Source of the DNA: Myxococcales bacterium
Lineage (GTDB): Bacteria; Myxococcota_A; Polyangia; Polyangiales; Polyangiaceae
Direction of reading: 5' to 3'
Assembly: GCA_012514535.1 (NCBI GenBank)
Contig: JAAZAA010000191.1
Coordinates: forward strand, 1-57,071
DNA: 57,071 bases
The notes beneath the pieces are model-generated. The model was given only the letters and a program-made list of their open reading frames with translations. It searched no databases and was not told the DNA's origin. Both the position numbers and the translations under genes were made by a program. Positions 17,363 through 54,702 of this stretch are shown here, piece by piece. How positions within the stretch are numbered: position 1 is the stretch's first letter; every line of letters begins with the position of its first letter.

Positions 17363-17764
17363 GACCGAGCGGCTCAGGCGATCGCCGGGCAGCGCGTCCC
17401 TCGGGAGGCGTTGCCGGGAGGAAAGTCCGGGCTCCGCAGGGCAGGATGCCGGGTAACGCCCGGTGAGGGTGACCTCGAGGAAAGTGCAACAGAAAACAAA
17501 CCGCCGAGCTCCCTCCCTCGGGAGGTGCGCTCGGTAAGGGTGAAACGGTGGGGTAAGAGCCCACCGCGCCGGCGGTAACGCAGGCGGCTAGGCAAACCCC
17601 ATCCGGAGCAAGGCCAAGAAGGAAGCGCCCGAGAGCTGCCCGCTCGATGCTTCCGGGTAGGCTGCTCGAGCCAGCCGGCGACGGCTGGCCTAGAGGAATG
17701 ATCGCCAGGGTGCTCGGGGTGACCGGAGCACCTCCACAGAACCCGGCTTACGAGCCACTCGGTC
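17363..17764 (+). ncRNA. rnpB: RNase P RNA, bacterial class A
   Basis: The catalytic RNA that matures tRNA 5' ends. The conserved 5' block GAGGAAAGTCCGGGCTCC is at 17418-17435, followed by the AGGGTGA and AAAGTGCAACAGAAA blocks and the AGGGTGAAACGGTGGGGTAAGAGCC region. AGAGGAATGATCGCC and the 3' block ACAGAACCCGGCTTA lie near the end. Helix P1 fixes the ends: 17363-17375 pairs with 17752-17764 with a single mismatch. A terminator hairpin follows directly. Confidence 0.95.
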
Positions 17765-17796
17765 CACGCCAGCTCTCGAGCTGGCGTGATTTCTTT
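17765..17796 (+). terminator. Intrinsic terminator of rnpB
   Basis: 11-bp stem CACGCCAGCTC/GAGCTGGCGTG (17765-17775 with 17778-17788) with a minimal loop, followed by the T-rich tract ATTTCTTTT. Confidence 0.85.
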
Positions 17797-36231: not shown

Positions 36232-37350
36232 TCAGGGCTGCGCGGTCGGCTGCGCCTCCGGGGCCGCAGCCTGGTCGACCTCTCCTCCCGCCGATGCCTC
36301 TGCCGGGGGCGGCGCTCCCTGGAGCGTTTGGGCCCGACGCTTGACGTCGAGGGCCAAGGCGCAGCTGTTCGCCTGACGTTGCCGGGCGGCCTGGACGGCC
36401 ACGCCTCCACGACGAGCGCCCACGTCGCGGAGCTCGCCTGCTGCCTGGCTCCGAACCCGGAGCAAGAGCTCCCCCGTCTTCAAGTCCCAGATCCCGACCC
36501 GCGCGAAATGCTGGCTGCGCTGCAGACGCTCTTGCTCCGTCTCGTCCGCATCCGGGATCGCCTCAGGCAGCCCATCCGCTGGCTCCTCGTCGAGAACCAA
36601 CGTGAACACCTTCGCCCGCTGGAAGACCTCGATCGCGACCGGAATGTCTACCCGCGTCACGCTGTCCAGACCGCCGTCATAGGCGCTGATCGCCAGCTCG
36701 TTGCGCGCCTGGTGCACCTCGTCCGTCCACTTGGAGGACAGGACGTGCAAGGCCCGATAAACCAGGCGCACGTTGAAGGGGTGCGCTGGCCGCTGGCAGA
36801 CGTTGAACTCCGTGCACACCTCACCCGGCTCACACTGGGCGCTCTCCCGGCACGCGGCGCCCTCCTGCGGGCTCGTCGCCTTCATGTCGCGGAACAGACA
36901 CGACGTGAAGCCATCCCTGAGGGACGCGGTGGCGGCCTTGCGCAGCTGCTCGACGTCCGCCGTATCCTCGAGCCGGAGCCGCAGGTAGATCCCCGGAGTC
37001 TCCCCGAGCTTCTCCAGATCCAAGTTCGGCGAGACGAAGTCACCCGGGTACGTGGCGCTCCTCAACTCCTGCGCCGCCGCTTCTACCTTGTCGCGAATGG
37101 GCAGCAGCTTGGGCCCCAGGCTCTGGGCCACCGCCCGCTGCTTGGCCATCAGCTCGTTGCGGGCCTTCTCCAGATCGGACTGGGCGACCCGGTAGTAGGC
37201 CACGAAGAACGTGACGAGGAGCAGGCCTCCCCAAAGAAAGAACTGCGGCGGCAGGCCACCGACGCGCGCTCGACCGGTGGCGAGCTGCCGTCGTCGCTCT
37301 GCGCGGGCCTCATTCAGGGAGGGCAATCCCGGCCGATGATTCTCTGCCAT
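36232..37350 (-). CDS. Unknown one-span membrane protein with Cys-rich periplasmic segment, TolQ-TolR-TolR operon partner
   Basis: 372 residues from ATG 37350, with AGGTGGAAG upstream. A short basic N terminus (EARAERRRQLATGRARV) precedes one span (PPQFFLWGGLLLVTFFVAYY, about 34-53). A helical stalk (DLEKARNELMAKQRAVAQSL) and a periplasmic region follow. Near the middle is a compact Cys motif (ACRESAQCEPGEVC...VC) like EGF or dickkopf-type Cys-rich segments in myxobacterial surface proteins. It is the last gene of the reverse-strand operon after two TolR-like genes, separated from them by two stem-loops. The layout (cytoplasmic tail, span, stalk, periplasmic domain) could couple the motor to a periplasmic partner. 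The family is not recognised. Confidence 0.72.
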   Translation of the reverse strand: MAENHRPGLPSLNEARAERRRQLATGRARVGGLPPQFFLWGGLLLVTFFVAYYRVAQSDLEKARNELMAKQRAVAQSLGPKLLPIRDKVEAAAQELRSATYPGDFVSPNLDLEKLGETPGIYLRLRLEDTADVEQLRKAATASLRDGFTSCLFRDMKATSPQEGAACRESAQCEPGEVCTEFNVCQRPAHPFNVRLVYRALHVLSSKWTDEVHQARNELAISAYDGGLDSVTRVDIPVAIEVFQRAKVFTLVLDEEPADGLPEAIPDADETEQERLQRSQHFARVGIWDLKTGELLLRVRSQAAGELRDVGARRGGVAVQAARQRQANSCALALDVKRRAQTLQGAPPPAEASAGGEVDQAAAPEAQPTAQP

Positions 37351-37417
37351 GTGCTTCCACCTGTCCCGGCAGCGGACTTCTCCCGCTCCGGATCTCGAGG
37401 GCCTCCGATACGACAAC

Positions 37418-37488
37418 GCCGAAGAAGCACAAGCTGCTTCCTCGGCGCTGGCAGTAGGACCGGCCGGTCGGAGCTAACTCGACCGGCC
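37418..37488 (-). other. Two intercistronic stem-loops
   Basis: First, 37418-37429 pairs with 37435-37446 (12 positions, one mismatch, 5-nt loop). Second, GGCCGGTCG (37462-37470) pairs with CGACCGGCC (37480-37488), 9 bp with a 9-nt loop. Both lie between the second TolR-like gene and the Cys-rich partner gene, on the transcript of the reverse operon. Neither is followed by a T-run. Confidence 0.6.
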
Positions 37489-37505
37489 CCTCGAGATGAG
37501 CAACC

Positions 37506-38078
37506 TCACTCGTCCGCAGCCATCCGGCCCACCATGAAGCTCACGGCGGGATACCCGGCGAACGCTGCCGTCTGGAACACGCTCTTCACCACCAGGGCCG
37601 GCACCTTCCGGTCCACCTGGAGAATCACGTTGCCCGGGAAGGGCTTACCAGGATTGATCTGGGTCCAGAGATCGCGCTTGGCCTTGAGGACGTTGTGGAG
37701 CTCGTCCACCCGCGTCAGGCGGTTGGCGTCGACGATGGCTCGCGTGCTGCCCGCGGGGATGCCGTCCACCAGGATGTGCGTTCCGGACACCGCGACGATG
37801 GGCGCCTCCAGCATGTCCACCGCGTTCTGAGCGTTGGGGAGTTTCACGTTCTTGTCGACCGGCAACTCACCGGTCGCGGAGAAGCTCGCGAGGAGGAAGA
37901 GCACGATGCAGAGCAAGAAGTCGATGAACGGGATCAGCGGGATCTCCGTATTCATCGCGCGCCCGCCGCCGCCCACGACCTTCTTGCGCACGAAGCCCAG
38001 GCCGATGTGGTGCAGCAGCCGCCGCCCTGGAACGTTGATCGGTTGATGAAATCTGCTGAGTGGTTTTTCGCCCGACAT
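37506..38078 (-). CDS. ExbD/TolR-family protein (second copy of the reverse operon)
   Basis: 190 residues from ATG 38078, with GAGGAG about 8 nt upstream. A ~40-residue basic N terminus is followed by the TolR signature IPLIPFIDFLLCIVLFLL, in which the single Asp in the membrane helix is the proton-carrying residue. A periplasmic domain follows (IVAVSGTHILVDGIPAG, PGNVILQVDRKVPALVVKSVF). With TolQ-type subunits it would form a proton-driven motor. It lies 12 bases after the sister TolR-like gene, and the two share the block IPLIPFIDFLLC. Confidence 0.9.
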   Translation of the reverse strand: MSGEKPLSRFHQPINVPGRRLLHHIGLGFVRKKVVGGGGRAMNTEIPLIPFIDFLLCIVLFLLASFSATGELPVDKNVKLPNAQNAVDMLEAPIVAVSGTHILVDGIPAGSTRAIVDANRLTRVDELHNVLKAKRDLWTQINPGKPFPGNVILQVDRKVPALVVKSVFQTAAFAGYPAVSFMVGRMAADE

Positions 38079-38090
38079 GACTGCAGCTCC

Positions 38091-38645
38091 TCAGTTGGTG
38101 GCGAAGGTCACGTGGAAGGCCGGAACCGTCTCGGTCTGCCCGCCCACGGTGAACTCGCGGGTCGGCACGTAGATGGCATCCAGCACGGCGATGACGTCGG
38201 CAAAGGGGGTGGAGTTGTCGGTGTGCAGCACGGCGCGGTCGAACTTCTTGTCCGTCGCTGCGCGGTGTGCGCCGTTCGCCTTCCACTCCGATTCGATCTT
38301 CTTGCCGAGCTCGGGGTAGGTTATGTCGCCCGATACCTCGACCGGCTTCCGGGGGACGTCGATGGTGTTGATGACGGTGGAACCTTCCTTCCAAACGAGC
38401 TGGAAGTGATTCTCACCACGCATCTCGACGTGGAGCTCCTTGTCCTTCGGCGGCTCGTCCTGCTCGTCCTCCCGCGGAGGACCGGGGACCTTGGCGTCCG
38501 CCTCGATGCGCGCCATGTGTGACCAAACAGCGGTCACGAGGAGAAACATCACGAGACAAAGGAGGAAGTCGATGAAGGGGATGAGCGGAATCTCGTGATT
38601 GCTGGCGCGCTTTCCGCCGTGCCCACCAACGTCAATACCGGCCAT
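38091..38645 (-). CDS. ExbD/TolR-family protein (first copy of the reverse operon)
   Basis: 184 residues from ATG 38645, with GAGGAT just upstream. The membrane helix EIPLIPFIDFLLCLVMFLL carries the conserved Asp. The periplasmic part is longer between helix and core (PPREDEQDEPPKD) and ends with ITYPELGKKIESEWKANG, DRAVLHTDNSTPFADVIAVLDAIY and VPAFHVTFATN. It is separated from the TolQ-like gene by 210 bases that contain a perfect 12-bp hairpin. Motor composition is one TolQ to two TolR genes, as in AglRQS. Confidence 0.9.
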   Translation of the reverse strand: MAGIDVGGHGGKRASNHEIPLIPFIDFLLCLVMFLLVTAVWSHMARIEADAKVPGPPREDEQDEPPKDKELHVEMRGENHFQLVWKEGSTVINTIDVPRKPVEVSGDITYPELGKKIESEWKANGAHRAATDKKFDRAVLHTDNSTPFADVIAVLDAIYVPTREFTVGGQTETVPAFHVTFATN

Positions 38646-38788
38646 ATTCGGATCCTCGCTACTTACGACGACTACGTGTTGTCTGAAAGGGCAGCGAGCG
38701 CTGCCCCGGGTGTCAGGCGATTGTCCTGTTTCCGACAACGGGCCCCGCCCATCGTTCCCGTCACCGACCCACTTTCTCGTTCAGTGGA

Positions 38789-38819
38789 CCCCACAATCGT
38801 TGAAAAGACGATTGTGGGG
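38789..38819 (-). other. Perfect 12-bp stem-loop between TolQ-like and TolR-like genes
   Basis: CCCCACAATCGT (38789-38800) is the exact complement of ACGATTGTGGGG (38808-38819), with a 7-nt loop. It is in the 210-base gap of the reverse operon. The A/T-rich core stands out from the surrounding GC-rich sequence. No T-run follows in the direction of transcription, so partial attenuation or RNA stability control is more likely than full termination. Confidence 0.75.
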
Positions 38820-38855
38820 GGGACGGCGACGACGGTGGGGCCCCGTGTCGTTCAA

Positions 38856-39515
38856 TCAGACAGCCTGCTCCACACCCTGGAGGTTGACCTTCTGGCGGTT
38901 GGCCACCACCAGGTTGAGAACCCGAACGCTCGCCTCGTTGATGTCGTCCTCGAGACCCTGGGTCTTGCCGTTGAGGAACGCGAAGCCCATCAGGCACACG
39001 ATGGCGGACAGGAGACCCCAGGCCGTGCAGTTCATGGCCTCGGAGATACCTTCCGCGAGGATGCGCGCCTTCTGGCTGGGGTCGACGGACTCACCACCGA
39101 CCGCGCCGAACGCCTTGATCAGGCCGACGATCGTGCCGAACAGACCACAGAGCATCGCGAGGTTGGCGAAGAGCGCGAGGAAGCCCGTGCGCTTGTTGAT
39201 CTTCGGCATCTCGATGAGAGCCGCTTCGTCCATCGCAGCCTGAACTTCTTCATCGGGGCGGTTGACCTTGACGAGGCCAGCCTGAACGATGCGCGCGAGG
39301 GGCGCGTTGGCGGCCGAGCACATCTTGACGGCCTTCGCGACGTCACCGGCGAGAATGCACTTCTGCATGGTCGCCAAGAACACGTCCTTGTTCACCGAAG
39401 CACCGAACAAGTACACGGTGCGTTCTGCGATCACGGCAACGCCGCAGATCAGCCAGAACGTGATGAGGTGCATCGCCCATCCGCCCTCTTGGTAATGGTG
39501 CCAAGCGTCTGACAT
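38856..39515 (-). CDS. MotA/TolQ/ExbB proton channel family protein (reverse operon)
   Basis: 219 residues from ATG 39515, with AGAGGAA 7 nt upstream. Three spans are visible: AMHLITFWLICGVAVIAERTVYLF (about 15-38), FLALFANLAMLCGLFGTIVGLIKAF (about 113-137) and NCTAWGLLSAIVCLMGFAFL (about 165-185). The middle-helix pattern A-x-L-x-G-L-F-G-T-I-V-G-L and the acidic/Gly turn before TM3 (ISEAMNCTAWGL) are typical of TolQ/ExbB. It forms the pentameric channel around a TolR dimer. First gene of TolQ-TolR-TolR-partner. Confidence 0.93.
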   Translation of the reverse strand: MSDAWHHYQEGGWAMHLITFWLICGVAVIAERTVYLFGASVNKDVFLATMQKCILAGDVAKAVKMCSAANAPLARIVQAGLVKVNRPDEEVQAAMDEAALIEMPKINKRTGFLALFANLAMLCGLFGTIVGLIKAFGAVGGESVDPSQKARILAEGISEAMNCTAWGLLSAIVCLMGFAFLNGKTQGLEDDINEASVRVLNLVVANRQKVNLQGVEQAV

Positions 39516-39662
39516 TTGTGGTTCCTCTTGCGTGGTGTGTGCTGCGGACCGTTCCGCTGGCTCGTTCGAGCATCGTTGGAGCCCCTGAGAGGAGGGGAAG
39601 CCGGGAAGGTCCGATGAGGCCCTGACCCGCGATGCTCCGGCAAGCTGCCGCAATGATTGATG

Positions 39663-39724
39663 AATTTGGCTGAAATTCCGCCTTTCGGCGGATTCGGACT
39701 GTGCAATCTTGCTGAAATCCCCCC
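39663..39724. repeat. Two 20-bp near-repeats exactly 42 bp apart
   Basis: AATTTGGCTGAAATTCCGCC (39663-39682) and AATCTTGCTGAAATCCCCCC (39705-39724) match at 16 of 20 positions. The period of 42 bp equals four helical turns. The pair lies about 150-210 nt upstream of the reverse TolQ-like gene and may be paired protein-binding sites. Confidence 0.55.
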
Positions 39725-40209
39725 CGAGCCGTCAAGGCCGAAGGCCACAAAGTTCGATGTTCGAGTCGAGGGGGAAATTTTCACACGAAGAGCGCCCTTC
39801 CCGAATGGGAAGCGGTGCCAGGGGCGGGCGCGCGCGACCAAGCCCCCCAAGCACCTCCGAGCCCACGCGCTACGGCGAGCGCCTCGATCGGAGGGTCGCG
39901 GTGGGTCGGGCTCTCGCGCGCGAGACTCTATTATCTGCACGGCCCGAGAGTCGAGCCTTTCTCAGAGTCGCGGCTGTCGTGGATCCCGCGTCGTGGATCC
40001 CGGGGAAGCCCACAGCTCGGGCGATTTCGCCGGCAGGACGCATCGGCCTTCGCCGACGAGGGTAGGCTCTTCTTCTCCTGCGTGTTGCGGGCTCCGGGCT
40101 CCGGGGGGAAGCGCGCGTAGGGAAGCGCCGACGAATGTAAGAGGGTCGTCGGGTCGCCAGAGGCTCACCCGGAGAAGTGCCACGCCGGATCTCCGTGCCT
40201 TCCTCGAGC

Positions 40210-40269
40210 CGCCCTTCCGCGCCCCGCCCTTCCGCGCCCCGCCCTTCCGCGCCCCGCCCTTCCGCGCCC
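40210..40269. repeat. 15-bp tandem repeat, 4 copies
   Basis: Unit CCGCCCTTCCGCGCC at 40210, 40225, 40240 and 40255, identical copies, followed by CCGCC. Intergenic. Confidence 0.95.
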
Positions 40270-40672
40270 CGCCGAGCCACCCCAGATCGGCGGACCTGCG
40301 GGAAATCCCGGATTCCCCGTCCGCCCGGAAGCACGACGGGAAGCACCCGAGCGAACCAATGGAGGAGCTAGGTGTGGGAACTCGATGCAGGACCGGTGTA
40401 GGACCACGTGTGCCGCGTCCGAGAGGCCGTCGATCCGGTTGCGTTCGATCCAGCCACGTCGCTATAGTCTGCTGCCATTCGCCGGGTCTACGTAGGCCCG
40501 CGGCTCGAACGACACACCTCGTGCTTCGGATCTCGACGTCGGAACGTGACTACCGGACCCATCCATAGGATCATGGACGTCGAAGCACCGCGAACGGCCC
40601 GTGCGCGCTCTTCAATCCCCGTGAGCAGCGCGCGAACGGAGCGCCGCAGGACATCGAGAAAGGGATAGGGGT

Positions 40673-41338
40673 ATGGAGCTCTTGCTCAGTACGGTCAGTT
40701 CTTGGGACCAGCTCGTGAAGGCGTTCAAGCACAACCCGACCTTCATGGTCATGAACCTGTGCTGCCTGGCCGTCGTGTGCACGATCGTCCTCGAGCGCTT
40801 TCACTTTCAGCTCACGCGTTACCGGGTGAACTCCCAGGAGTTCTTCTCGCAGATCAAGAAGCTCGTCCTCGCGGGGAACATCGATCGGGCGATCAAGCTG
40901 TGCGACGCCGGGGATTATCCGATCCTCCAGCTCGTGAAGTCCGGCCTGACCCACGCGAACAAGGGCGCCGACGAGATCGACGCGGCCCTCAGCGAGCGCC
41001 TGGCGGAGCTGAAGCCCGAGGCGGAGAAGCGGGTGGGTGCGTTGTGGTCCCTGGCGAACATCGCCACCCTGATCGGCTTGCTCGGCACCGTCTCCGGTCT
41101 GATCGCGACGTTCGCCGCCATCGCCCGCCCCGACCTCTCCCAGGCGGACAAGCAGGCCTTGCTCTCGAACGGTATCGCCGAGGCCATGTACAACACGGCC
41201 CTGGGACTCGGCATCGCCGTGTTCTGCATGATCACTCACATCATCCTCCACACCCGCGCCAAGGCGATCCAGCACGACCTGGAAGGAACGATGGAGCGCA
41301 CCTTCAACCTGTTGACCATTCAGCGTGCCAGCGCGTGA
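40673..41338 (+). CDS. MotA/TolQ/ExbB proton channel family protein (forward operon)
   Basis: 221 residues. Three spans: PTFMVMNLCCLAVVCTIVLERF (about 22-43), ANIATLIGLLGTVSGLIATFAAI (about 127-150) and NTALGLGIAVFCMITHIILH (about 175-195). L-I-G-L-L-G-T-V-S-G-L is the classic TolQ/ExbB TM2 pattern. Cytoplasmic part includes KKLVLAGNIDRAIKLCDAGDYPILQLVKSGL. It is the first gene of a second TolQ-TolR-TolR operon and is divergent from the first. It is clearly different in sequence from the reverse-strand paralogue, so this is not a recent duplication. Confidence 0.93.
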   Translation: MELLLSTVSSWDQLVKAFKHNPTFMVMNLCCLAVVCTIVLERFHFQLTRYRVNSQEFFSQIKKLVLAGNIDRAIKLCDAGDYPILQLVKSGLTHANKGADEIDAALSERLAELKPEAEKRVGALWSLANIATLIGLLGTVSGLIATFAAIARPDLSQADKQALLSNGIAEAMYNTALGLGIAVFCMITHIILHTRAKAIQHDLEGTMERTFNLLTIQRASA

Positions 41339-41400
41339 CTGGTGCACGGGCAATGGGGGCGGAACCTCGGTGGGGCGAGTCGACGGGGTGAGTTCGGATC

Positions 41401-41955
41401 ATGGCTGAGCTGAGCGCCGCGCAGCGGGCGAAAATCCGGCGGCTGAGCCAACCCAAGGAGCTGGCTCCCGACGAGGAGGGCGGCGAGCTCAACATCGTCC
41501 CCTTCCTCGACATCATCGTGAACATCCTGATCTTCGTCCTGGCGACGGTGGCGGTGACGTTCACCTCGACCATCGAGACGACGCCACCCGCCGCGAAGGG
41601 GACGGGGGTGCGCGCCTCGACGCCAACCGAGTCCCTGAATCTCACGGTGATGGTCGTCAACGAGGGCTTCTCGCTGAAGGCGTCCGGGGGCAACGTGGCC
41701 CCCGGCTGTGAGGGCATCGGCGCGGGCCTGGCCATCCCCAAGGCCGGCGGGCGCTACGACTACCCCGCCCTCACCCGCTGCGCCGCGAAGCTCAAGCGAT
41801 CGAATCCGGCGTTCGAAGAGGAGACGCAGGTATACATCAGCGCCAATCCCGCCACCGATTACCAGACGATCATCCAGGTGATCGACGCGCTACGGAAGAT
41901 GCCGGACGGCTCGGGCGTGCTCTTCGATTCCGTCAACTTCCAGGTGAAGGAATGA
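41401..41955 (+). CDS. ExbD/TolR-family protein (forward operon, first)
   Basis: 184 residues from ATG 41401. A charged N terminus (RAKIRRLSQPKELAPDEEGG) precedes the helix LNIVPFLDIIVNILIFVLATVAV with the conserved proton-carrying Asp. The periplasmic part has LNLTVMVVNEGFSLKASG and ends with QVYISANPATDYQTIIQVIDALRKM and VLFDSVNFQV, the TolR/ExbD C-terminal fold. Two cysteines (PGCEG and TRCAAK) in the periplasmic domain may form a disulfide. 62 bases separate it from the TolQ-like gene. Confidence 0.9.
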   Translation: MAELSAAQRAKIRRLSQPKELAPDEEGGELNIVPFLDIIVNILIFVLATVAVTFTSTIETTPPAAKGTGVRASTPTESLNLTVMVVNEGFSLKASGGNVAPGCEGIGAGLAIPKAGGRYDYPALTRCAAKLKRSNPAFEEETQVYISANPATDYQTIIQVIDALRKMPDGSGVLFDSVNFQVKE

Positions 41956-41977
41956 CCCTCGGGACAGGAGGAAGGCG

Positions 41978-42595
41978 ATGAGCTCGGCCCAGCCACCCAC
42001 CCCCGCAGGCCGGACGACCCCGGCCCAGGCTTCGCCGGCAGAGTACAAGGCCGCCCTCAGGAAGGCGATCCGCCGAAACGCCGTCGAACCCGAGATCAAC
42101 TTCCTGAACATCACCGCGATGCTCGACATCATGACGATCATCCTGGTGTTCCTCCTGAAGAGCCTGGGAGAGTCCACCGCGTCAGTACCGCAGAGCGACG
42201 ATTTGCAGCTCCCCAAGTCCGTGCTCCAGTCGGAGCCGTCGCAGACGGGTGTCGTCGTCACCATCACGAAGAGCCAGATCCTCGTGGGGGACAACAAGGT
42301 GCTGACGCTCCCGAGCCGGGAGTCGATGACGCAGACCGGCGTGGGCGCGAGCAACAAGCGGAACGGCCCCAACGACTTCTACATCGTGCCGCTCGGCTCG
42401 GCGCTCCAGGCCGCGCGCAAGACCGACAAGATCATCCAGCAACGCAAGGGGCTGGATGGGGCCGTCTCGGAGGCGCTGATCGTCGCGGACCAAACCACGC
42501 CCTACCGGCTGCTCATCGAGGTGCTCTTCACCCTGGGACAGACCGAGTTCGGGAAGTACCATCTAATGGTCATTCAATCGAAGGACGGCGCCTGA
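41978..42595 (+). CDS. ExbD/TolR-family protein (forward operon, second)
   Basis: 205 residues from ATG 41978, with AGGAGGAAGG upstream. The N terminus is Pro/Ala-rich (PPTPAGRTTPAQASP), followed by INFLNITAMLDIMTIILVFLLKSL with the conserved membrane Asp. The periplasmic domain contains VVVTITKSQILVGDNKVLTLP and LIVADQTTPYRLLIEVLFTLGQTEF. With the two genes before it, it gives one TolQ and two different TolR subunits, matching the AglR-AglQ-AglS composition of the M. xanthus gliding motor. Orthology is not shown. Confidence 0.9.
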   Translation: MSSAQPPTPAGRTTPAQASPAEYKAALRKAIRRNAVEPEINFLNITAMLDIMTIILVFLLKSLGESTASVPQSDDLQLPKSVLQSEPSQTGVVVTITKSQILVGDNKVLTLPSRESMTQTGVGASNKRNGPNDFYIVPLGSALQAARKTDKIIQQRKGLDGAVSEALIVADQTTPYRLLIEVLFTLGQTEFGKYHLMVIQSKDGA

Positions 42596-43022: not shown

Positions 43023-45140
43023 GTGACCGCGACAGTCTTGATTCTCGGCATCCACCTAGCGGGGCTGCTCTTCGCCCTGGGCCTCGGAGCCTGGGTGTTC
43101 AGCCGTTCGCACGGTTCCCCGGAGGTGCGCCGCCTGTCTGCCGCGGTGGAGCGAGCGGGCCTCGCGTTCTCCTGGGGTCAGTACCGCTTGGTGGGGCTCG
43201 CTGCCGCGGTGGTGCTGGTCGCGACGATCTCGGCCGCGGTGATCTGGGGCCTGCCCGGGACGCAGTTCTCGAAGGCGGAGGCTGCGTTCTGGCTGTCCTT
43301 GGCGATCGCCGCGGGCAGCGGCTCGACTTGCCTCGCCGTGCACTTCGCGGGGCGGCTCACCCTCCGCGCGGCGGCGGGCGTCGCGGGCGCGAGCGGTCGC
43401 GGTCAGGACGAGGCGCTGGCGCTCGCGGTACGAACGGGAGGCGCCGGTGCCGCCGCGGCAGAGGCCCTGGGCGCCCTGGGATTCCTCGGCTTGCTGCTCG
43501 CCGCGCTCGCCCTGCAGGACGGTGAGCTCGCCTCGGTGGCGGGTCAGGTGGTGCGCCTGCTCGGCGGCTACGCGCTGGGCGCCGCGATCGCCGCGGCCGT
43601 GCTGCATCGCGGGGCCGTCATCCTCAACGCCTCGACCCGCGTCGGGGGGGGGCACCCGGAGCTCCGCCTCACCGACAGCCGCAACCCGGCGTCCGTCTCC
43701 CACCTGCTCGGGTGCAGCGTCGGGCGTTCTCTGCGCGTCACGACGGACTTTTTCTTGGCGACGAGCTTGGGCAACCTCGCCCTCGCCGGGCTCGCCGCCC
43801 ATACCATCGAGCAGAACCCGGAGCTCTCCTTCGCGAGCCTGCTGCGGTGGGCCCTGCTGCCGTTCCTCGTCCGCGCCTTCGGCGCCATGGCCGCCTGCTT
43901 CGGCACGATGGCGACCCGTACGACGAGCCAGGAAGCGCCCGCCCTGGGCCTCTGGCGCGGGAACGCGACGACGCTCCTCGTCCTCCTCGGCGGCGCGATC
44001 GCCAGCGCTCGTTGGCTGGCAGGGCCCGAGTGGGCGACGCGGGCGACGCTGGTGGCCGTCGCGGTCGTGGTCGTCGTGCTCGGCGCCACCGCTCTCTTCG
44101 ACGTCCTGCGGACCCGCGCGCGGCCCGGAGTCGCCCACGCGCGCAACATCGTCATCGTGGCTCGCGGGTGCGCCGCCGCGCTTCAGTCCGTCCCCATCCC
44201 GTTGGGGTTGCTCGTAGCCGCCTTCGCCCTCGGGGGCGCCCTCCTCCCTCAGACGGAGGCGCCCGAGGGCGCGCCGACCCTGTGGGCCGCCGCGTTGGCC
44301 GTGGGCTCCGCCCTCGCCCTGGCTCCCCACCTCCTCGCCCTCCAGCTCGGCGCCGTGGTGACGCGCACGGCGCACGAGATGCTCGCCTTGGGCAACGGAC
44401 CGGCGACGAGCCAGCAGCGGGCTCAGCGCCTCGCCGGGACCCAGGACGGCTTCGCGACGGGCGCCCAGCTCGCCATCTCCGTGTCCGGAGCCGGCGCCGC
44501 TCTGCTCGGTGCAGCGGTGCTGGCGGGCGCGGTCGTCCCGGCGGCCCTCGAGACGACGACCGAATCGGTCGGCGCCTACGTGGGGCTATGGGGAGCCTGC
44601 GCGCCCCTCGGCGCGGCGCTCGTGCTCGCCTTCCTCGGCAACGGCGTGTGGAGCTCCTCTCGAGGGGCCGATCGCACCGCCGCCGAGGTGGAGCGTCAGC
44701 TGACGCCCTACACGAACGAAGACGGGCGCCTGCTGTTGCCTCCGGATTTCGCGCCGAGCTATCGGGCGTGCATCGACGTGCTCGGCATCGAGCCGCGCAA
44801 GAACCTCCTCGTCCCGTTGACCTTCGTCGTGGGCGCGCCGCTGCTCGTGGCCGTCGCCCTGCGGGCGGTCTTCGACGCTGCTTCGGCGCTCGCGGGGCTC
44901 GCCGCCCTCGCCGTGGTCGCCGCGTGCGCTGGCTTGGTGGCGGCGTGGGCAGCGGAGGCAGCGGCGAGCACCCTGACGCCAGCCGAACGCCTCGGGACGA
45001 CGCCCCTCGGCGGAGAGGGCCGCTCCCACCTGACGGTCGCTGGTGTCTCCATCCTCCTGCGGACCTGCGGCCCCATGGCCCAGGTTCTGGCGAAGGCAGC
45101 CGTCATGACCAGTCTGGCCATCGCCATCTTCTTGATCTGA
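43023..45140 (+). CDS. Membrane-bound pyrophosphatase homologue lacking the catalytic residues
   Basis: 705 residues from GTG 43023, about the length of bacterial H+/Na+-pumping pyrophosphatases, with ~16 membrane helices. Family landmarks can be followed in order: the AxRxGGA block (ALAVRTGG, 133-140), RNPAS (220-224, as in DDPRNPA), the YRACIDV block (580-586, as in Y-A-R-C-V-D) and a CGPMAQVLAKAAVM end (682-695, as in SGPSLNILIKLM). But the Mg-pyrophosphate sites are gone. DVGADLVGK is replaced by LNASTRVGG (201-209), DNVGDNVGD by SHLLGCSVG (226-234), SDNAGG by VTRTAH (446-451) and GDTVGDPFKDT by LTVAGVSILLRTC (670-682). The reading frame is intact, so it is a maintained non-enzymatic paralogue rather than a pseudogene. 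Confidence 0.82.
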   Translation: MTATVLILGIHLAGLLFALGLGAWVFSRSHGSPEVRRLSAAVERAGLAFSWGQYRLVGLAAAVVLVATISAAVIWGLPGTQFSKAEAAFWLSLAIAAGSGSTCLAVHFAGRLTLRAAAGVAGASGRGQDEALALAVRTGGAGAAAAEALGALGFLGLLLAALALQDGELASVAGQVVRLLGGYALGAAIAAAVLHRGAVILNASTRVGGGHPELRLTDSRNPASVSHLLGCSVGRSLRVTTDFFLATSLGNLALAGLAAHTIEQNPELSFASLLRWALLPFLVRAFGAMAACFGTMATRTTSQEAPALGLWRGNATTLLVLLGGAIASARWLAGPEWATRATLVAVAVVVVVLGATALFDVLRTRARPGVAHARNIVIVARGCAAALQSVPIPLGLLVAAFALGGALLPQTEAPEGAPTLWAAALAVGSALALAPHLLALQLGAVVTRTAHEMLALGNGPATSQQRAQRLAGTQDGFATGAQLAISVSGAGAALLGAAVLAGAVVPAALETTTESVGAYVGLWGACAPLGAALVLAFLGNGVWSSSRGADRTAAEVERQLTPYTNEDGRLLLPPDFAPSYRACIDVLGIEPRKNLLVPLTFVVGAPLLVAVALRAVFDAASALAGLAALAVVAACAGLVAAWAAEAAASTLTPAERLGTTPLGGEGRSHLTVAGVSILLRTCGPMAQVLAKAAVMTSLAIAIFLI

Positions 45141-48591: not shown

Positions 48592-48669
48592 GTCCGGCTC
48601 CGCCCGCGCCTCAACGCCACATCGACACGGTCCGGCTCCGTCGCGCGGAACTCAACGCCGCATCGACAC
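48592..48669. repeat. 40-bp duplication at the 3' end of rodA
   Basis: GGTCCGGCTCCG is followed by TCAACGCCACATCGACAC (48612-48629). The pair then recurs as GGTCCGGCTCCG...TCAACGCCGCATCGACAC (48652-48669), the second copy holding the rodA stop and last codons. Just before it, CCGACTGAGCCGCG repeats after the helicase stop (48491-48520). Confidence 0.75.
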
Positions 48670-49776
48670 GCTCATGAGCATGCCGAGGGAGACGAGCATG
48701 GTCACGACGCTGGAGCCACCGTACGAGAAGAGCGGCAGGGTGATCCCCACGACGGGCAGGAGCCCCATCGACATGCCCAGGTTGAACACGGTGTGCCAGA
48801 AGATGATCGCTCCCACGCCCAGGGCCAGCGCCGCCCCGAACCGGTCCTTCGCCTGAGAGGCGATGTAGACCGCGTGGATGGATAGGAGACAGTAGAGCGC
48901 GAGCAGCACCATGCAGCCGAGGAACCCAAACTCCTCGGCGAACACGCTGAAGGGGAAGTCCGAGTGCTGATCCGGGAGGAAACCGAACTGGTTCTGCGTC
49001 CCCCGCATGAAGCCCTCCCCGCTCCAGCCGCCGTTCCCGATCGCGGTCTGCGACTGGAGCGCGTGCCAACCGGTGCCCGTCTTGTCTCCTTCGGGGTCGA
49101 GGAAGCTCGTGATGCGACCGCGCTGGTAGTCGTGGAGACCGAACTTCCACATGAAGCTGCCGAAGAGAGTCCCCCCGATCAGGACCGCCGCGACCGTGCC
49201 GCGACGGATGCGCGTCACCGCCAGGATGCTGAGGGTCGTCAGCACGTAGATGAGGGAGGTACCCAAGTCCGGCTGCAACATCACCAACGTGACGGGCAAC
49301 ATCGTCACGATGGCGGGTTGGATGAGATCGAAGAGGCCACGCTCGTCGGTCTTCGCGTCGTTCTGCAGGTAGCGCGCCACCATCAGCGCCACGAGAGGCT
49401 TCATGAACTCGCTCGGCTGCATCGCGAAGCTGCCGATCCGAATCCAGCGCTGTGAGCCGCGCACGTCCGTGGCGAACACGAACACCATCAACAGCAAGAG
49501 CAGCCCCGCGCCGTACAGCACGGGCGCGAGGCGCTCCAGGTGCCGATAGTCGATGGCCGCCAGCAGCATGCCCAGGAGCAGCCCCACCACGATCCAGTAG
49601 ATCTGCGTGACGTAGATGTCGGCGAGGCCCGCGCGCTGGGTCGCGCCGACGTAGGCGCTCGTGGCGCTGTAGAGGTTGACGACCCCGATACAGGAGATCG
49701 CCACCACCAAGAACAGCAGCACCATGTCGATCTGTGGGCCGCCGCGGAACGTGATGGTGTGGCGATAAGGCCGCAT
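48652..49776 (-). CDS. rodA: Rod-shape SEDS glycosyltransferase RodA
   Basis: 374 residues. RodA polymerises lipid II in the elongasome with PBP2. Ten membrane segments are present. SEDS landmarks include GSQRWIRIGSFAMQPSEFMKPLVALMVARYL, LQPDLGTSLIYVLT, the conserved Asp region QNQFGFLPDQHSDFPFSVFAEEFGFLG and the final GITLPLFSYGGSSVVTML. Start ATG 49776 overlaps the PBP2 stop by one base (TGATG). Last gene of the mre operon. Confidence 0.96.
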   Translation of the reverse strand: MRPYRHTITFRGGPQIDMVLLFLVVAISCIGVVNLYSATSAYVGATQRAGLADIYVTQIYWIVVGLLLGMLLAAIDYRHLERLAPVLYGAGLLLLLMVFVFATDVRGSQRWIRIGSFAMQPSEFMKPLVALMVARYLQNDAKTDERGLFDLIQPAIVTMLPVTLVMLQPDLGTSLIYVLTTLSILAVTRIRRGTVAAVLIGGTLFGSFMWKFGLHDYQRGRITSFLDPEGDKTGTGWHALQSQTAIGNGGWSGEGFMRGTQNQFGFLPDQHSDFPFSVFAEEFGFLGCMVLLALYCLLSIHAVYIASQAKDRFGAALALGVGAIIFWHTVFNLGMSMGLLPVVGITLPLFSYGGSSVVTMLVSLGMLMSVSMRR

Positions 49777-51680
49777 CAGTCCCTCTCCTCCAGCCGCGCC
49801 GAGAGGCGCTCGGCCTTCATGCGTTGCCAGTCGCGCACCACCTGCATGGCCACCGGCACGGCGTTCTTACCGCCGCCGCCGCCGTGCTCGACGAGCACCA
49901 CCACGGCGATCTCCGGCGACTCCGCGGGCGCATAGCCCGCGAACCAGGCGTGGTCACGGTTGAAGTACCAGACGCGATCCGGGTCCACGCCCCGCGGCGT
50001 GACCTGGGTCACCTGGGCGGTCCCCGTCTTGCCCGCCATGTCGACGCCCTCGATCCGCGCGCCGTAGGCGGTCCCCTCCCGCTCCGTCACGACGCCCTTG
50101 AGGCCACGACGCAGCAGGTTCAGGCGCTCGGCGTCCAGATCGACGACGCGCCGCACGCGCGGCGGGAAGTCCTGCACGACCGTACCGTCGCTCGTCTCGA
50201 TGCTGCGCACCACCTGCGGACGGTAGAGCGTGCCGCCGTTGGCGAGGGCGCCGTAGCCGAGGGCGAGCTGGAGGACGTTCACCGTCGTGGCGCCCTGACC
50301 GATGGCCGCCAGCAGGGTGAAGCCGCCGCGGAACGCGCCCTTGTAGCGCCGCGTGTACCATCCGCGCGTCGGCATCCGGCCCCGCGCCTCCGGGTTGATC
50401 CCGACGCCCGTGGTCGCGCCGAAGCCGAACTTCATGCCGACCTCCGCGAGGCGGTCGATGTGGATCTGCGACCCGAGCTCGTAAAAGTAGGTGTTGCAGG
50501 AGCGCACCATGGCCCGGTGCAGATCCACCCGCCGATGCACGCCCGTGCAGCGGAAGAAGCGCTTGCCGAACTTGTAGCCGCCGCGGCAGTCGACGATCGT
50601 GTCGGGGCGAATCAGCCCCTCCTCCAGCCCCGCCAAGGCCGTGAACGGTTTGTAGGTCGACCCCGGCGGATAAGCGGCGGACATCGTTTTGTCCAAGGTC
50701 GGCTTCAGGGGGTCGGCGTAGTAGCGCTTGAAGGCGTCCTGGACCGCCGCCTTGCCGCTGCCCCCGGAGACGATGTTCGGATCGAAGCTCGGCTTGGACA
50801 GGGCGGCCAGGAGGCGGCCCGTGCGCACGTCGACCACCACGACGGCGCCAGCGAGCTGCCCGCGCATCGCCCGCTCCGCCGACCGCATCAGCTCGATGTC
50901 CACCGTCAGGGAGATGTCGCGCCCGGGCAGCGGCTCCTGGATCCTGTTCTCGCCCAGGTAACGCTCCTCGAGCTCGTCGACGTGGTCGCTGTTCGCGCTC
51001 TTGCGGATGAAGCGACGCCACCCCCTCTGCCCCCGCAGGTAGCTCTCCCAGCGTCGCTCCACCCCGACGGCGCCCAGCCGGTCCCCCGCGCGGTACCCGG
51101 CCTCGGGCTTCTGGGCGAGCAGCTCCCCGTCCACCTCACGCATGTAGCCGAGCAGGTGGGCGCCGAGCTCCCCGTGAGGGTAGTAGCGGACCGGCGCAGG
51201 GGTCACGTCGACCCCACGCAGGGAGCCCGCGTGCGTCTCCAGAGCGGCCACCGCGTCGCGGCTCACGTCCACCTTGATGAGGGTCTGCTGCTTGGCGCGA
51301 TTGCCGCCCTCCTCCTTGAGCGCGACGATCTTCTCGCGGAGCCCCTCCGCCTCACCGGGCGACAACCCCATCATCGCCACGACGCGCGGCCAGGTCTCCT
51401 CCAGATCGATCCGGTCGGGGACGACGTGCACGTTGTAGGCGGGGCGGTTCGCCGCCAGGACCTTTCCCTGAGCATCGCGAATGACCCCCCGCGTCGTCGC
51501 CAGCCTGCGCTCTCCCACGATGTTGCGGCGCGCCTGCGCCTCGTGGACGTCCCCGCGCACGATCTGCAGGACCGCGAGGCGCACGGCGAACACCGAGAAG
51601 CTCATGACGATGAACAGCACGAGCCAGCGGAATCTCTTTCGAAATTCACCGACGTCGGAGCGCTGCGCGAGGGAGGTCAT
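49776..51680 (-). CDS. mrdA: Penicillin-binding protein 2 (elongation transpeptidase)
   Basis: 634 residues from ATG 51680. N-terminal span (FRWLVLFIVMSFSVFAVRLAVLQ), pedestal domain, then the transpeptidase domain: SxxK as PPGSTYKPF (near residue 340), SxN as VRSCNTYFYELG, and KTG as MAGKTGTAQV (near 550). It cross-links the glycan strands made by RodA. It starts 29 bases after the mreD stop and overlaps rodA by one base. Confidence 0.96.
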   Translation of the reverse strand: MTSLAQRSDVGEFRKRFRWLVLFIVMSFSVFAVRLAVLQIVRGDVHEAQARRNIVGERRLATTRGVIRDAQGKVLAANRPAYNVHVVPDRIDLEETWPRVVAMMGLSPGEAEGLREKIVALKEEGGNRAKQQTLIKVDVSRDAVAALETHAGSLRGVDVTPAPVRYYPHGELGAHLLGYMREVDGELLAQKPEAGYRAGDRLGAVGVERRWESYLRGQRGWRRFIRKSANSDHVDELEERYLGENRIQEPLPGRDISLTVDIELMRSAERAMRGQLAGAVVVVDVRTGRLLAALSKPSFDPNIVSGGSGKAAVQDAFKRYYADPLKPTLDKTMSAAYPPGSTYKPFTALAGLEEGLIRPDTIVDCRGGYKFGKRFFRCTGVHRRVDLHRAMVRSCNTYFYELGSQIHIDRLAEVGMKFGFGATTGVGINPEARGRMPTRGWYTRRYKGAFRGGFTLLAAIGQGATTVNVLQLALGYGALANGGTLYRPQVVRSIETSDGTVVQDFPPRVRRVVDLDAERLNLLRRGLKGVVTEREGTAYGARIEGVDMAGKTGTAQVTQVTPRGVDPDRVWYFNRDHAWFAGYAPAESPEIAVVVLVEHGGGGGKNAVPVAMQVVRDWQRMKAERLSARLEERD

Positions 51681-51709
51681 GGGGGTTCAGCGAAGCCGTG
51701 GGAGGAAGC

Positions 51710-52291
51710 TCAAGGGGGGGTGATCGTGCTCCCCGGGGAGGACGAGGAGCTCCCCGGCCCCGTGCGGCCTTCGATGTGCAGCCGATGGGCGAGGGCAAAG
51801 AGGAACGGCGCGCAGAGAGCGGTGCCGACGGCGCGGGGCAAGACCACCATGCCGATCTCCACAGGCCGACGGTTGTCGGCACCGAAGATGGCCAACAACG
51901 TGAGCAGGATCGCGCTCTCGATCAAGGAGAACGCAAAGGCGAGCGGCACGCGGGTCATGAACGCCTGAGCACTCAGACGAACGCTGGCGATGCGAGCCAG
52001 CCACCACAGCGCGACCGCCGTGAAGCGGAACAGGAACATGGGCGCTGGCCCCAAGAGATCGAGGGCCCAGCCCATGCCATAAGCGAGCAGGGCGCCCCGA
52101 GCCATCGAGTGCTCGTGGATCCCGAGGTAGACGATCAGCGGCAACACCAGGTTCGGGGTGGCGCTCTGGAGCCAGCTGCCCACGGGGAGCCCGCCCACCT
52201 CGAGCCCGCTCAGGGGAGCCAGGAGGTGCCACAGGTTGCTCTGGACGAGGACCAGCAGGACCCCCACGGCGAGGTACGCCGCATTCCTCAT
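51710..52291 (-). CDS. mreD: Rod-shape determining protein MreD
   Basis: 193 residues, slightly longer than usual. Five to six membrane helices: AAYLAVGVLLVLVQSNL, ATPNLVLPLIVYLGIH, RGALLAYGMGWALDLLG, and others. The acidic/Gly motif GMGWALDLLGP after the third helix is typical of MreD. It has a Ser/Pro tail. It sits between mreC and mrdA, 32 bases after mreC, as in other rod operons. Identification rests mainly on context and topology. Confidence 0.85.
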   Translation of the reverse strand: MRNAAYLAVGVLLVLVQSNLWHLLAPLSGLEVGGLPVGSWLQSATPNLVLPLIVYLGIHEHSMARGALLAYGMGWALDLLGPAPMFLFRFTAVALWWLARIASVRLSAQAFMTRVPLAFAFSLIESAILLTLLAIFGADNRRPVEIGMVVLPRAVGTALCAPFLFALAHRLHIEGRTGPGSSSSSPGSTITPP

Positions 52292-52323
52292 GCCGTGCCT
52301 CCTCTACCCGCGCCGATCATGGT

Positions 52324-53220
52324 TCACCGCTCCACGCGCCGACGATCTTCGGCAGGGCCGCAGTCCTCCTTCTCTTCCGTGAGCACGATGAGCACCTCGT
52401 CCAAACGCGAGAAGTCGACCGTTGGCTCTGCCTCGACGGACTGGTAGATCCCGAAATCCCGCTTCACCACCTCGGTGACGCGCGCCACGGGGATCCCCGC
52501 CGGGAAGCGGCACCCCTTGCCGCTGGTCACCAGGAGATCACCGACCTCGACCCCGTCGTCCGTGCCCACGTACTCGACCCGGACCACGTAGCGGGAGTCG
52601 TCGCCGATCCCCCGCACGAAGCCTCGGGCCCCGGTCCGCTCCACGACCACGTCCGCGCCGAAGCCGCTGTCGACGACGAGCTGGACGGTGGCGGAGTCCC
52701 CCACCACCCGCTTGATCACCCCCACCGCGCCGTCCAGCGCGACCACGGGCATGTTCTGCCGCACCGCGACGCCCGGATGATCCAGGACGATGTGCGCGAC
52801 CCGGAAATAGGCGTTGGTGTCCTTGCCGATGACGAGCGCGCTCGCCGTCTCGGCCGGAACCGTGTCCCGGAGCCCCAGGAGGCTACGCAGGCGCTTGTTC
52901 TCTGCGCGGACGCGGGCGAGCTCCCGCGTCTCCGCCCGGAGACGCGACACCTCGTGGTAGAGTTCGTTGTTGTCCCGCTTGACGTCGACCAGATAGACGT
53001 AGTCGCCGACCAGGTGAGAGACCCCGCGCCCCAGGGCCGCCGCGGCGTACTGCACCGGCGCGGCGACACGCATGAGGCTCTGATCGAGCCAGTTCATGTC
53101 TTCGGGGCGCCGAATGGTGGCCCGCAAGAAGAAGAACGGCAGCGCCAGCAGCAGAACGACGACGAACGTGTCTCGGTAGCGCTTGTAAAAGCCCAAGGCG
53201 ACTATCCTCGAAAGCCCCAC
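52324..53220 (-). CDS. mreC: Rod-shape determining protein MreC
   Basis: 298 residues from GTG 53220. One N-terminal span (TFVVVLLLALPFFFL), then a coiled coil (NNELYHEVSRLRAETRELARVRAENKRLRSLLGL) and two beta-barrel domains: IGKDTNAYFRVAHIVLDHPGVAVRQNMPVVALDGAVGVI and GDLLVTSGKGCRFPAGIPVARV. It is a periplasmic scaffold linking MreB/MreD to PBP2. It starts 67 bases after the mreB stop. Confidence 0.95.
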   Translation of the reverse strand: MGLSRIVALGFYKRYRDTFVVVLLLALPFFFLRATIRRPEDMNWLDQSLMRVAAPVQYAAAALGRGVSHLVGDYVYLVDVKRDNNELYHEVSRLRAETRELARVRAENKRLRSLLGLRDTVPAETASALVIGKDTNAYFRVAHIVLDHPGVAVRQNMPVVALDGAVGVIKRVVGDSATVQLVVDSGFGADVVVERTGARGFVRGIGDDSRYVVRVEYVGTDDGVEVGDLLVTSGKGCRFPAGIPVARVTEVVKRDFGIYQSVEAEPTVDFSRLDEVLIVLTEEKEDCGPAEDRRRVER

Positions 53221-53287
53221 GGTGAGCGCCGGGCCACCGCGAGAACGTGAATTGCAGTCCGGGGCTTAGCACGTACCCGGCGAAGGC

Positions 53288-54702
<1,415 letters not shown>

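Follow-up and report, generated by a model that had tools for sequence, protein, structure and literature searches.

AglRQS, the gliding and spore-coat motor of Myxococcus, is encoded in M. xanthus by MXAN_6862-60, with published lengths of 245, 162 and 194 residues for AglR, AglQ and AglS (PMC3169522). The D28N exchange in AglQ abolishes proton conductance in M. xanthus (PMC3858216), and according to a 2022 review, whether AglQ and AglS assemble as homo- or as heterodimers has yet to be established (PMC9389320). MXAN_3003-5 has been described as the sole other complete Agl set of this species (PMC3858216); we refer to it as M2 and to AglRQS as M1. Deleting M2 in M. xanthus affected neither motility nor sporulation (PMC3169522, PMC3858216). 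Here, we describe a locus in which putative counterparts of both motors lie back to back.

The window, a stretch of 57,071 nucleotides from a Myxococcales bacterium, belongs to a genome of 5.77 Mb in 442 contigs. At 36232-42595 it contains two operons that diverge, each with a single TolQ/ExbB-type gene and a pair of genes of TolR/ExbD type (Table 1). We call the minus-strand operon A (QA-RA1-RA2-X) and the plus-strand operon B (QB-RB1-RB2). Pfam recognised one MotA_ExbB protein (E values of 1e-23 to 1e-24) and two ExbD proteins (6e-12 to 9e-11) per operon, which, together with the gene order, agrees with the composition given in a preliminary description of this DNA. Its gene list and coordinates were likewise correct, except that the fourth gene of the minus-strand operon, X, had been left undescribed. 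The starts of RA1 and QA were set at the ATG codons at 38645 and 39515; the open reading frames reach 38738 and 39653. The operons are flanked by genes for ClpA, a hydantoinase/oxoprolinase and an SNF2 helicase, and by mreBCD-rodA. Beside the two operons we saw no gene for TolA, TolB, Pal, ybgC, TonB or a receptor, as the preliminary description had already noted for the four classic Tol parts. Elsewhere in the window lie a class A RNase P RNA (17366-17765) and a tRNA gene (2493-2565). The pyrophosphatase homolog next to operon B lacks the signature motifs; the one at locus L046 (1826-4042) keeps them near-intact, and in Anaeromyxobacter an intact H+-pyrophosphatase (PF03030, 608 bits) directly follows the A operon (L232, 4226-6655).

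Table 1. Features of the divergent motor locus, in window coordinates.
Feature	Position	Strand	Basis
X, fourth gene of A operon	36232..37350	-	372 aa; no Pfam or NCBIfam hit
RA2, TolR/ExbD type, assigned to AglS family	37506..38078	-	PF02472, 6.4e-12; groups with AglS-type R2 in tree
RA1, TolR/ExbD type, assigned to AglQ family, membrane Asp kept	38091..38645	-	PF02472, 1.7e-11; groups with AglQ-type R1
QA, TolQ/ExbB type, assigned to AglR family	38856..39515	-	PF01618, 3.4e-24; Q tree
Spacer between operons	39516..40672		1,157 bp, ATG to ATG
Conserved promoter-like block of A operon	39706..39736	-	TTGAC, about 18 nt, CAAGAT; kept in 7/7 aligned spacers
QB, TolQ/ExbB type, assigned to M2 (MXAN_3003-5) family	40673..41338	+	PF01618, 1.3e-23; Q tree
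RB1, TolR/ExbD type, assigned to M2 R1 family, membrane Asp kept	41401..41955	+	PF02472, 9.2e-11; tree; Asp
RB2, TolR/ExbD type, assigned to M2 R2 family, membrane Asp kept	41978..42595	+	PF02472, 7.8e-11; tree; Asp
Degenerate membrane pyrophosphatase homolog, neighbour outside core	43023..45140	+	between B operon and SNF2; NF001953, 102 bits (cut-off 783)

As a stand-in for M. xanthus we used a Myxococcus-like, single-contig genome of 8,973,512 bp, which was recognised partly by gene position and gene lengths. Its A operon (minus strand, 8.16 Mb) encodes proteins of 245, 162 and 194 residues with the R1 membrane aspartate at residue 28, and its B operon lies on the plus strand at 3.54 Mb, as expected for MXAN_3003-5. 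The GltG protein of this genome scores 1094 bits against the NCBI GltG model (cut-off 650), which supports a gliding Myxococcus-type genome. Because the R1 of its B operon also carries an aspartate at residue 28, B rather than A was considered as AglRQS; this was ruled out by the protein lengths, which fit A and not B (245/173/193), by the start of the Pfam match in AglS (28) and by gene position.

We placed the subunits in a maximum-likelihood tree of 67 Q proteins and a tree of 79 R proteins. In the Q tree, A and B together form an Agl superclade (support 100/100, branch 1.65) apart from TolQ, ExbB and the myxobacterial TonB-linked Q proteins. AglR lies on the A side, which as a single clade reaches only 89/60. 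The B clade (99/93) includes the M2-type Q proteins of Corallococcus and of the Myxococcus-like genome, and the plus-operon Q joins the Myxococcaceae M2 Q at 100/98. Among the Q proteins from paired loci, A and B each form one clade (100/99 and 100/95). In the R tree, RA1 and RB1 group together (99/87), as do RA2 and RB2 (100/98), with supports of 98/92 for both RA1 and RA2, 100/99 for RB1 and 100/98 for RB2. Since the R1 subunits of A and B group, and the R2 subunits likewise, a Q-R1-R2 set existed before A and B split, and the trees show that both operons derive from one older Q-R1-R2 operon by an ancient operon duplication.

The Q, R1 and R2 of the minus operon group with AglR, AglQ and AglS, away from TolQR and ExbBD, and those of the plus operon with the Myxococcaceae M2 set. 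Both R subunits of the minus operon carry an acidic residue in the transmembrane helix. On the basis of the trees, of the subunit lengths in the literature and of where the key aspartate lies, we assign the minus operon to the AglRQS (M1) family and the plus operon to the M2 (MXAN_3003-5) family. The preliminary description had likened the composition of both sets to AglR-AglQ-AglS; this can now be refined, in that the minus set alone falls to AglRQS proper. Its view that the sets are strongly divergent and not a fresh duplication accords with the 32% identity between QA and QB and with the ancient split, which rule out a recent tandem duplication, and in the subunit phylogeny that it had proposed neither set falls among ExbB, TolQ or TonB proteins.

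How does the locus compare with the known systems? Operon A shares with M. xanthus AglRQS (MXAN_6862-6860) the order of one Q followed by two R genes, the Q, R1 and R2 clades, the membrane aspartate in both R subunits and a GltG-like partner whose gene lies at another place in the genome. It differs by X after R2 and by the M2-type operon back to back, neither of which was found in the 15-17 kb surrounding either operon of the Myxococcus-like genome. Operon B falls in the same clades as M2 of M. xanthus (MXAN_3003-3005), and in both the R1 keeps the membrane aspartate, unlike in M2-type sets of other groups; however, B is linked to the A operon in the window, whereas the two sets are unlinked in Myxococcaceae. 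TolQR of Tol-Pal and ExbBD of TonB have PF01618 and PF02472 in common with both motors, but they have a single R gene, are linked to TolA/B/Pal or TonB and fall in separate clades. The TonB-ExbB-ExbD-ExbD sets of myxobacteria likewise combine one Q with two R genes, but they are accompanied by a TonB-like gene and by large neighbours resembling receptors, and fall in a separate clade; such a set, in which a TonB-like gene, ExbB and a pair of ExbD genes adjoin a large protein of receptor-like type, was seen at loci L228, L230, L231, L235 and L236. A tandem pair of Q genes occurs in the A-type operons of L100 (7857-9179) and L097 (245-1776). No relatives of QA were found in viral contigs and none of RA1 in plasmids.

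Is the back-to-back arrangement a common feature of related genomes? We searched 59 genomes, counting that of the window; 55 have a close QA, and in 50 of these 55 a QB-type gene adjoins it on the opposite strand. The five genomes without a scored pair comprise three with QA at a contig edge (G019, G023, G034), one with only 1.1 kb of upstream sequence (G046) and one, G005, in which A and X are present and QB is not adjacent. Counting loci with enough upstream sequence, QB lies within 3 kb in 61 of 62 high-scoring QA loci, compared with 0 of 50 lower-scoring A-type loci from beyond the order, a set that includes Corallococcus, Archangium and Anaeromyxobacter; locus L154 has A without a neighbouring B. 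The pairing, whose absence from relatives the preliminary description had named as a point against it, is therefore kept in 61 of 62 loci of the order. Going by the names of its carriers (Sorangium cellulosum, Minicystis rosea, Polyangium and Sandaracinaceae), this order is apparently Polyangiales. All 20 regions that we fetched, of up to 20 kb, show the identical order of the six motor genes. The outer flanks vary, with ClpA/hydantoinase, SNF2 and mreBCD-rodA in several Polyangiaceae and a TRAP transporter and Lon in other families. Since the flanks differ between families while the block of seven genes stays, it is the block and not the neighbourhood that is conserved. The mreBCD-PBP2-rodA genes lie near the module in the window (48652-54322) and at L041, L042, L044, L049 and L050, with rodA and PBP2 in each; at L052, L053, L054, L056 and L058, loci of other families in the order, the nearby genes are those of a TRAP transporter, namely DctP, mostly with DctM and a TatT-like lipoprotein, and Lon in most.

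The spacer between the operons ranges from 243 to 1154 bp across 61 loci (median 710). In the window it holds a tandem repeat of five 15-bp units (40198-40273), and the conserved TTGAC-18-CAAGAT block is found some 190-220 bp ahead of QA. Three relatives have a separate block in front of QB, similar to TTGCGC-18-TATAGT; a sigma-70 scan of the window spacer found nothing. The conserved blocks point to two putative promoters, not one shared element. Of the 1.16-kb control region that the preliminary description had the two operons share, the gap itself stands, but the sharing is unsupported: it amounts to adjacency, the spacer length varies, and separate conserved blocks lie near the A gene and, in some relatives, near the B gene.

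X was called downstream of A in 58 of 64 high-scoring loci with enough sequence. Among the 20 fetched regions it was weak or undetected in some distant families, and a candidate was alignable in those examined. In a sample of 188 genomes of the phylum, X had matches in 34, of which 32 belong to the order (the window's own included; E of 2e-35 or better) and two, outside it, are partial and negligible (E about 8e-4); nine Myxococcaceae/Anaeromyxobacter genomes gave no match. On this distribution, X is to be regarded as a previously unnamed, order-specific fourth protein. Four positions, Tyr122, Asp146, Cys151 and Cys330, are invariant across the 49 aligned sequences. In the AlphaFold2 model (pLDDT 90.7), a helix at 35-97 begins as a membrane span and runs on, followed by a mixed alpha/beta domain; X is thus predicted to cross the membrane once, by a helix that continues far into the periplasm and leads to an alpha/beta domain; two of its cysteines are invariant. 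Fold searches gave no confident match (best Foldseek E 0.09; VIA Z 6.4, where models that lack a clear match typically still reach 7-8), a profile search against PDB sequences returned nothing significant, and a likeness to small periplasmic alpha/beta domains (PelC, CsgG, TolB-N) was weak and set aside. X most likely serves the A motor, because it accompanies A even in G005, a genome with no adjacent B. A second, unlinked X paralog occurs in six Polyangiaceae (e.g. L289 9778-10779, L293 9913-10911, L294 9770-10765); in the two that were checked, L289 and L293, it sits after a protein with a MutS_V ATPase domain.

We consider it probable that the locus is a conserved module of seven genes for two PMF-driven motors, A being the local AglRQS (M1) with X and B the local M2. 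A pair of motors for Tol-Pal-like envelope maintenance or TonB-type nutrient uptake would draw on the same Pfam families, and myxobacteria do have TonB-linked sets of one Q and two R genes; yet against the TolQ equivalog of NCBIfam the window's Q proteins reach 61 (QA) and 52 bits (cut-off 221) and against the ExbB equivalog 40 (QA) and 43 bits (cut-off 206), the trees set both operons apart from TolQ, ExbB and TonB-linked sets, and no tolA, tolB, pal, TonB or receptor gene was seen beside the motors. These scores and trees rule out membership in Tol-Pal and TonB systems, and we regard such a function as very unlikely.

It is conceivable, if rather doubtful, that the operons are a passive relic, adjacent by descent and without shared function. 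Their origin by duplication from one Q-R1-R2 operon would fit such a relic, as would the unconserved spacer length and the blocks that suggest separate promoters, but the copies are divergent and not tandem, and the pair was kept while the flanks rearranged over the same period. That A and B instead form one two-motor machine, co-expressed, sharing X or a Glt complex and working in opposite directions or as two gears, appears improbable to us: the divergent linkage, which persists while the outer flanks switch from SNF2/mreB to TRAP/Lon, argues for it, whereas G005 retains A and X with no B beside them, the sets are unlinked in Myxococcaceae, and a two-hybrid signal with NfsG and GltG was reported for AglR and not for MXAN_3003 (PMC3858216). 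A related reading, in which all seven genes would make one composite envelope machine of two different heterodimer-axle motors with X as a new periplasmic transducer, a form of the myxobacterial surface-transport machine with two motors, we rate as a long shot.

For the module of two motors that we favour, the known families suggest a mechanism. In each motor, by analogy with these families, Q would form a ring that conducts protons and encloses an axle made of R subunits. The A motor may pull or rotate a Glt-type envelope machine encoded elsewhere, as AglR does via GltG in Myxococcus, with X as its dedicated adaptor, which would sit in the inner membrane and extend its long helix into the periplasm. 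A Glt-type load for A is plausible, since the window's genome holds a GltD-GltE-GltG-like cluster on another contig (C152) and all 59 relatives searched have GltG-like matches, most of them full length. The GltG-like protein of the window's genome is full length at 348 bits, below the NCBI equivalog cut-off of 650, as is every GltG-like protein of the order, so the load of the A motor may be other than gliding. The B motor would drive a second load; its function is a guess, as M. xanthus without M2 showed no defect in motility or sporulation. The divergent placement would keep both sets together, perhaps co-regulated, although the motors are not strictly interdependent, since A occurs without a neighbouring B in G005 and L154.

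The M2 family also bears on the composition of the axle. Among M2-type operons of groups other than the window's order and Myxococcaceae (L297-L326 and L091, L106, L118-L121), R1 lacks the membrane acid in 30 of 30 loci and carries Asn (23), Ser (3), Ala (2) or Gly (2) instead, while R2 keeps the aspartate in nearly all cases where the position was readable. The D28N exchange that stops proton conductance in M. xanthus AglQ is a change of this kind. By contrast, the aspartate is present in all 63 RB1 proteins that were read from paired loci. For M2-type sets with the acid in R2 only, the simplest reading would be an axle of mixed composition or one in which a single side works. The R1/R2 split conserved in both families, together with the acid kept only in R2 of some M2 sets, favours the mixed axle.

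The M2-type sets lacking the R1 acid thus offer named proteins for testing axle composition. The order-wide pairing of M2 with a gliding-type motor and with the order-specific X, in turn, would provide a genetic handle on the role of M2.
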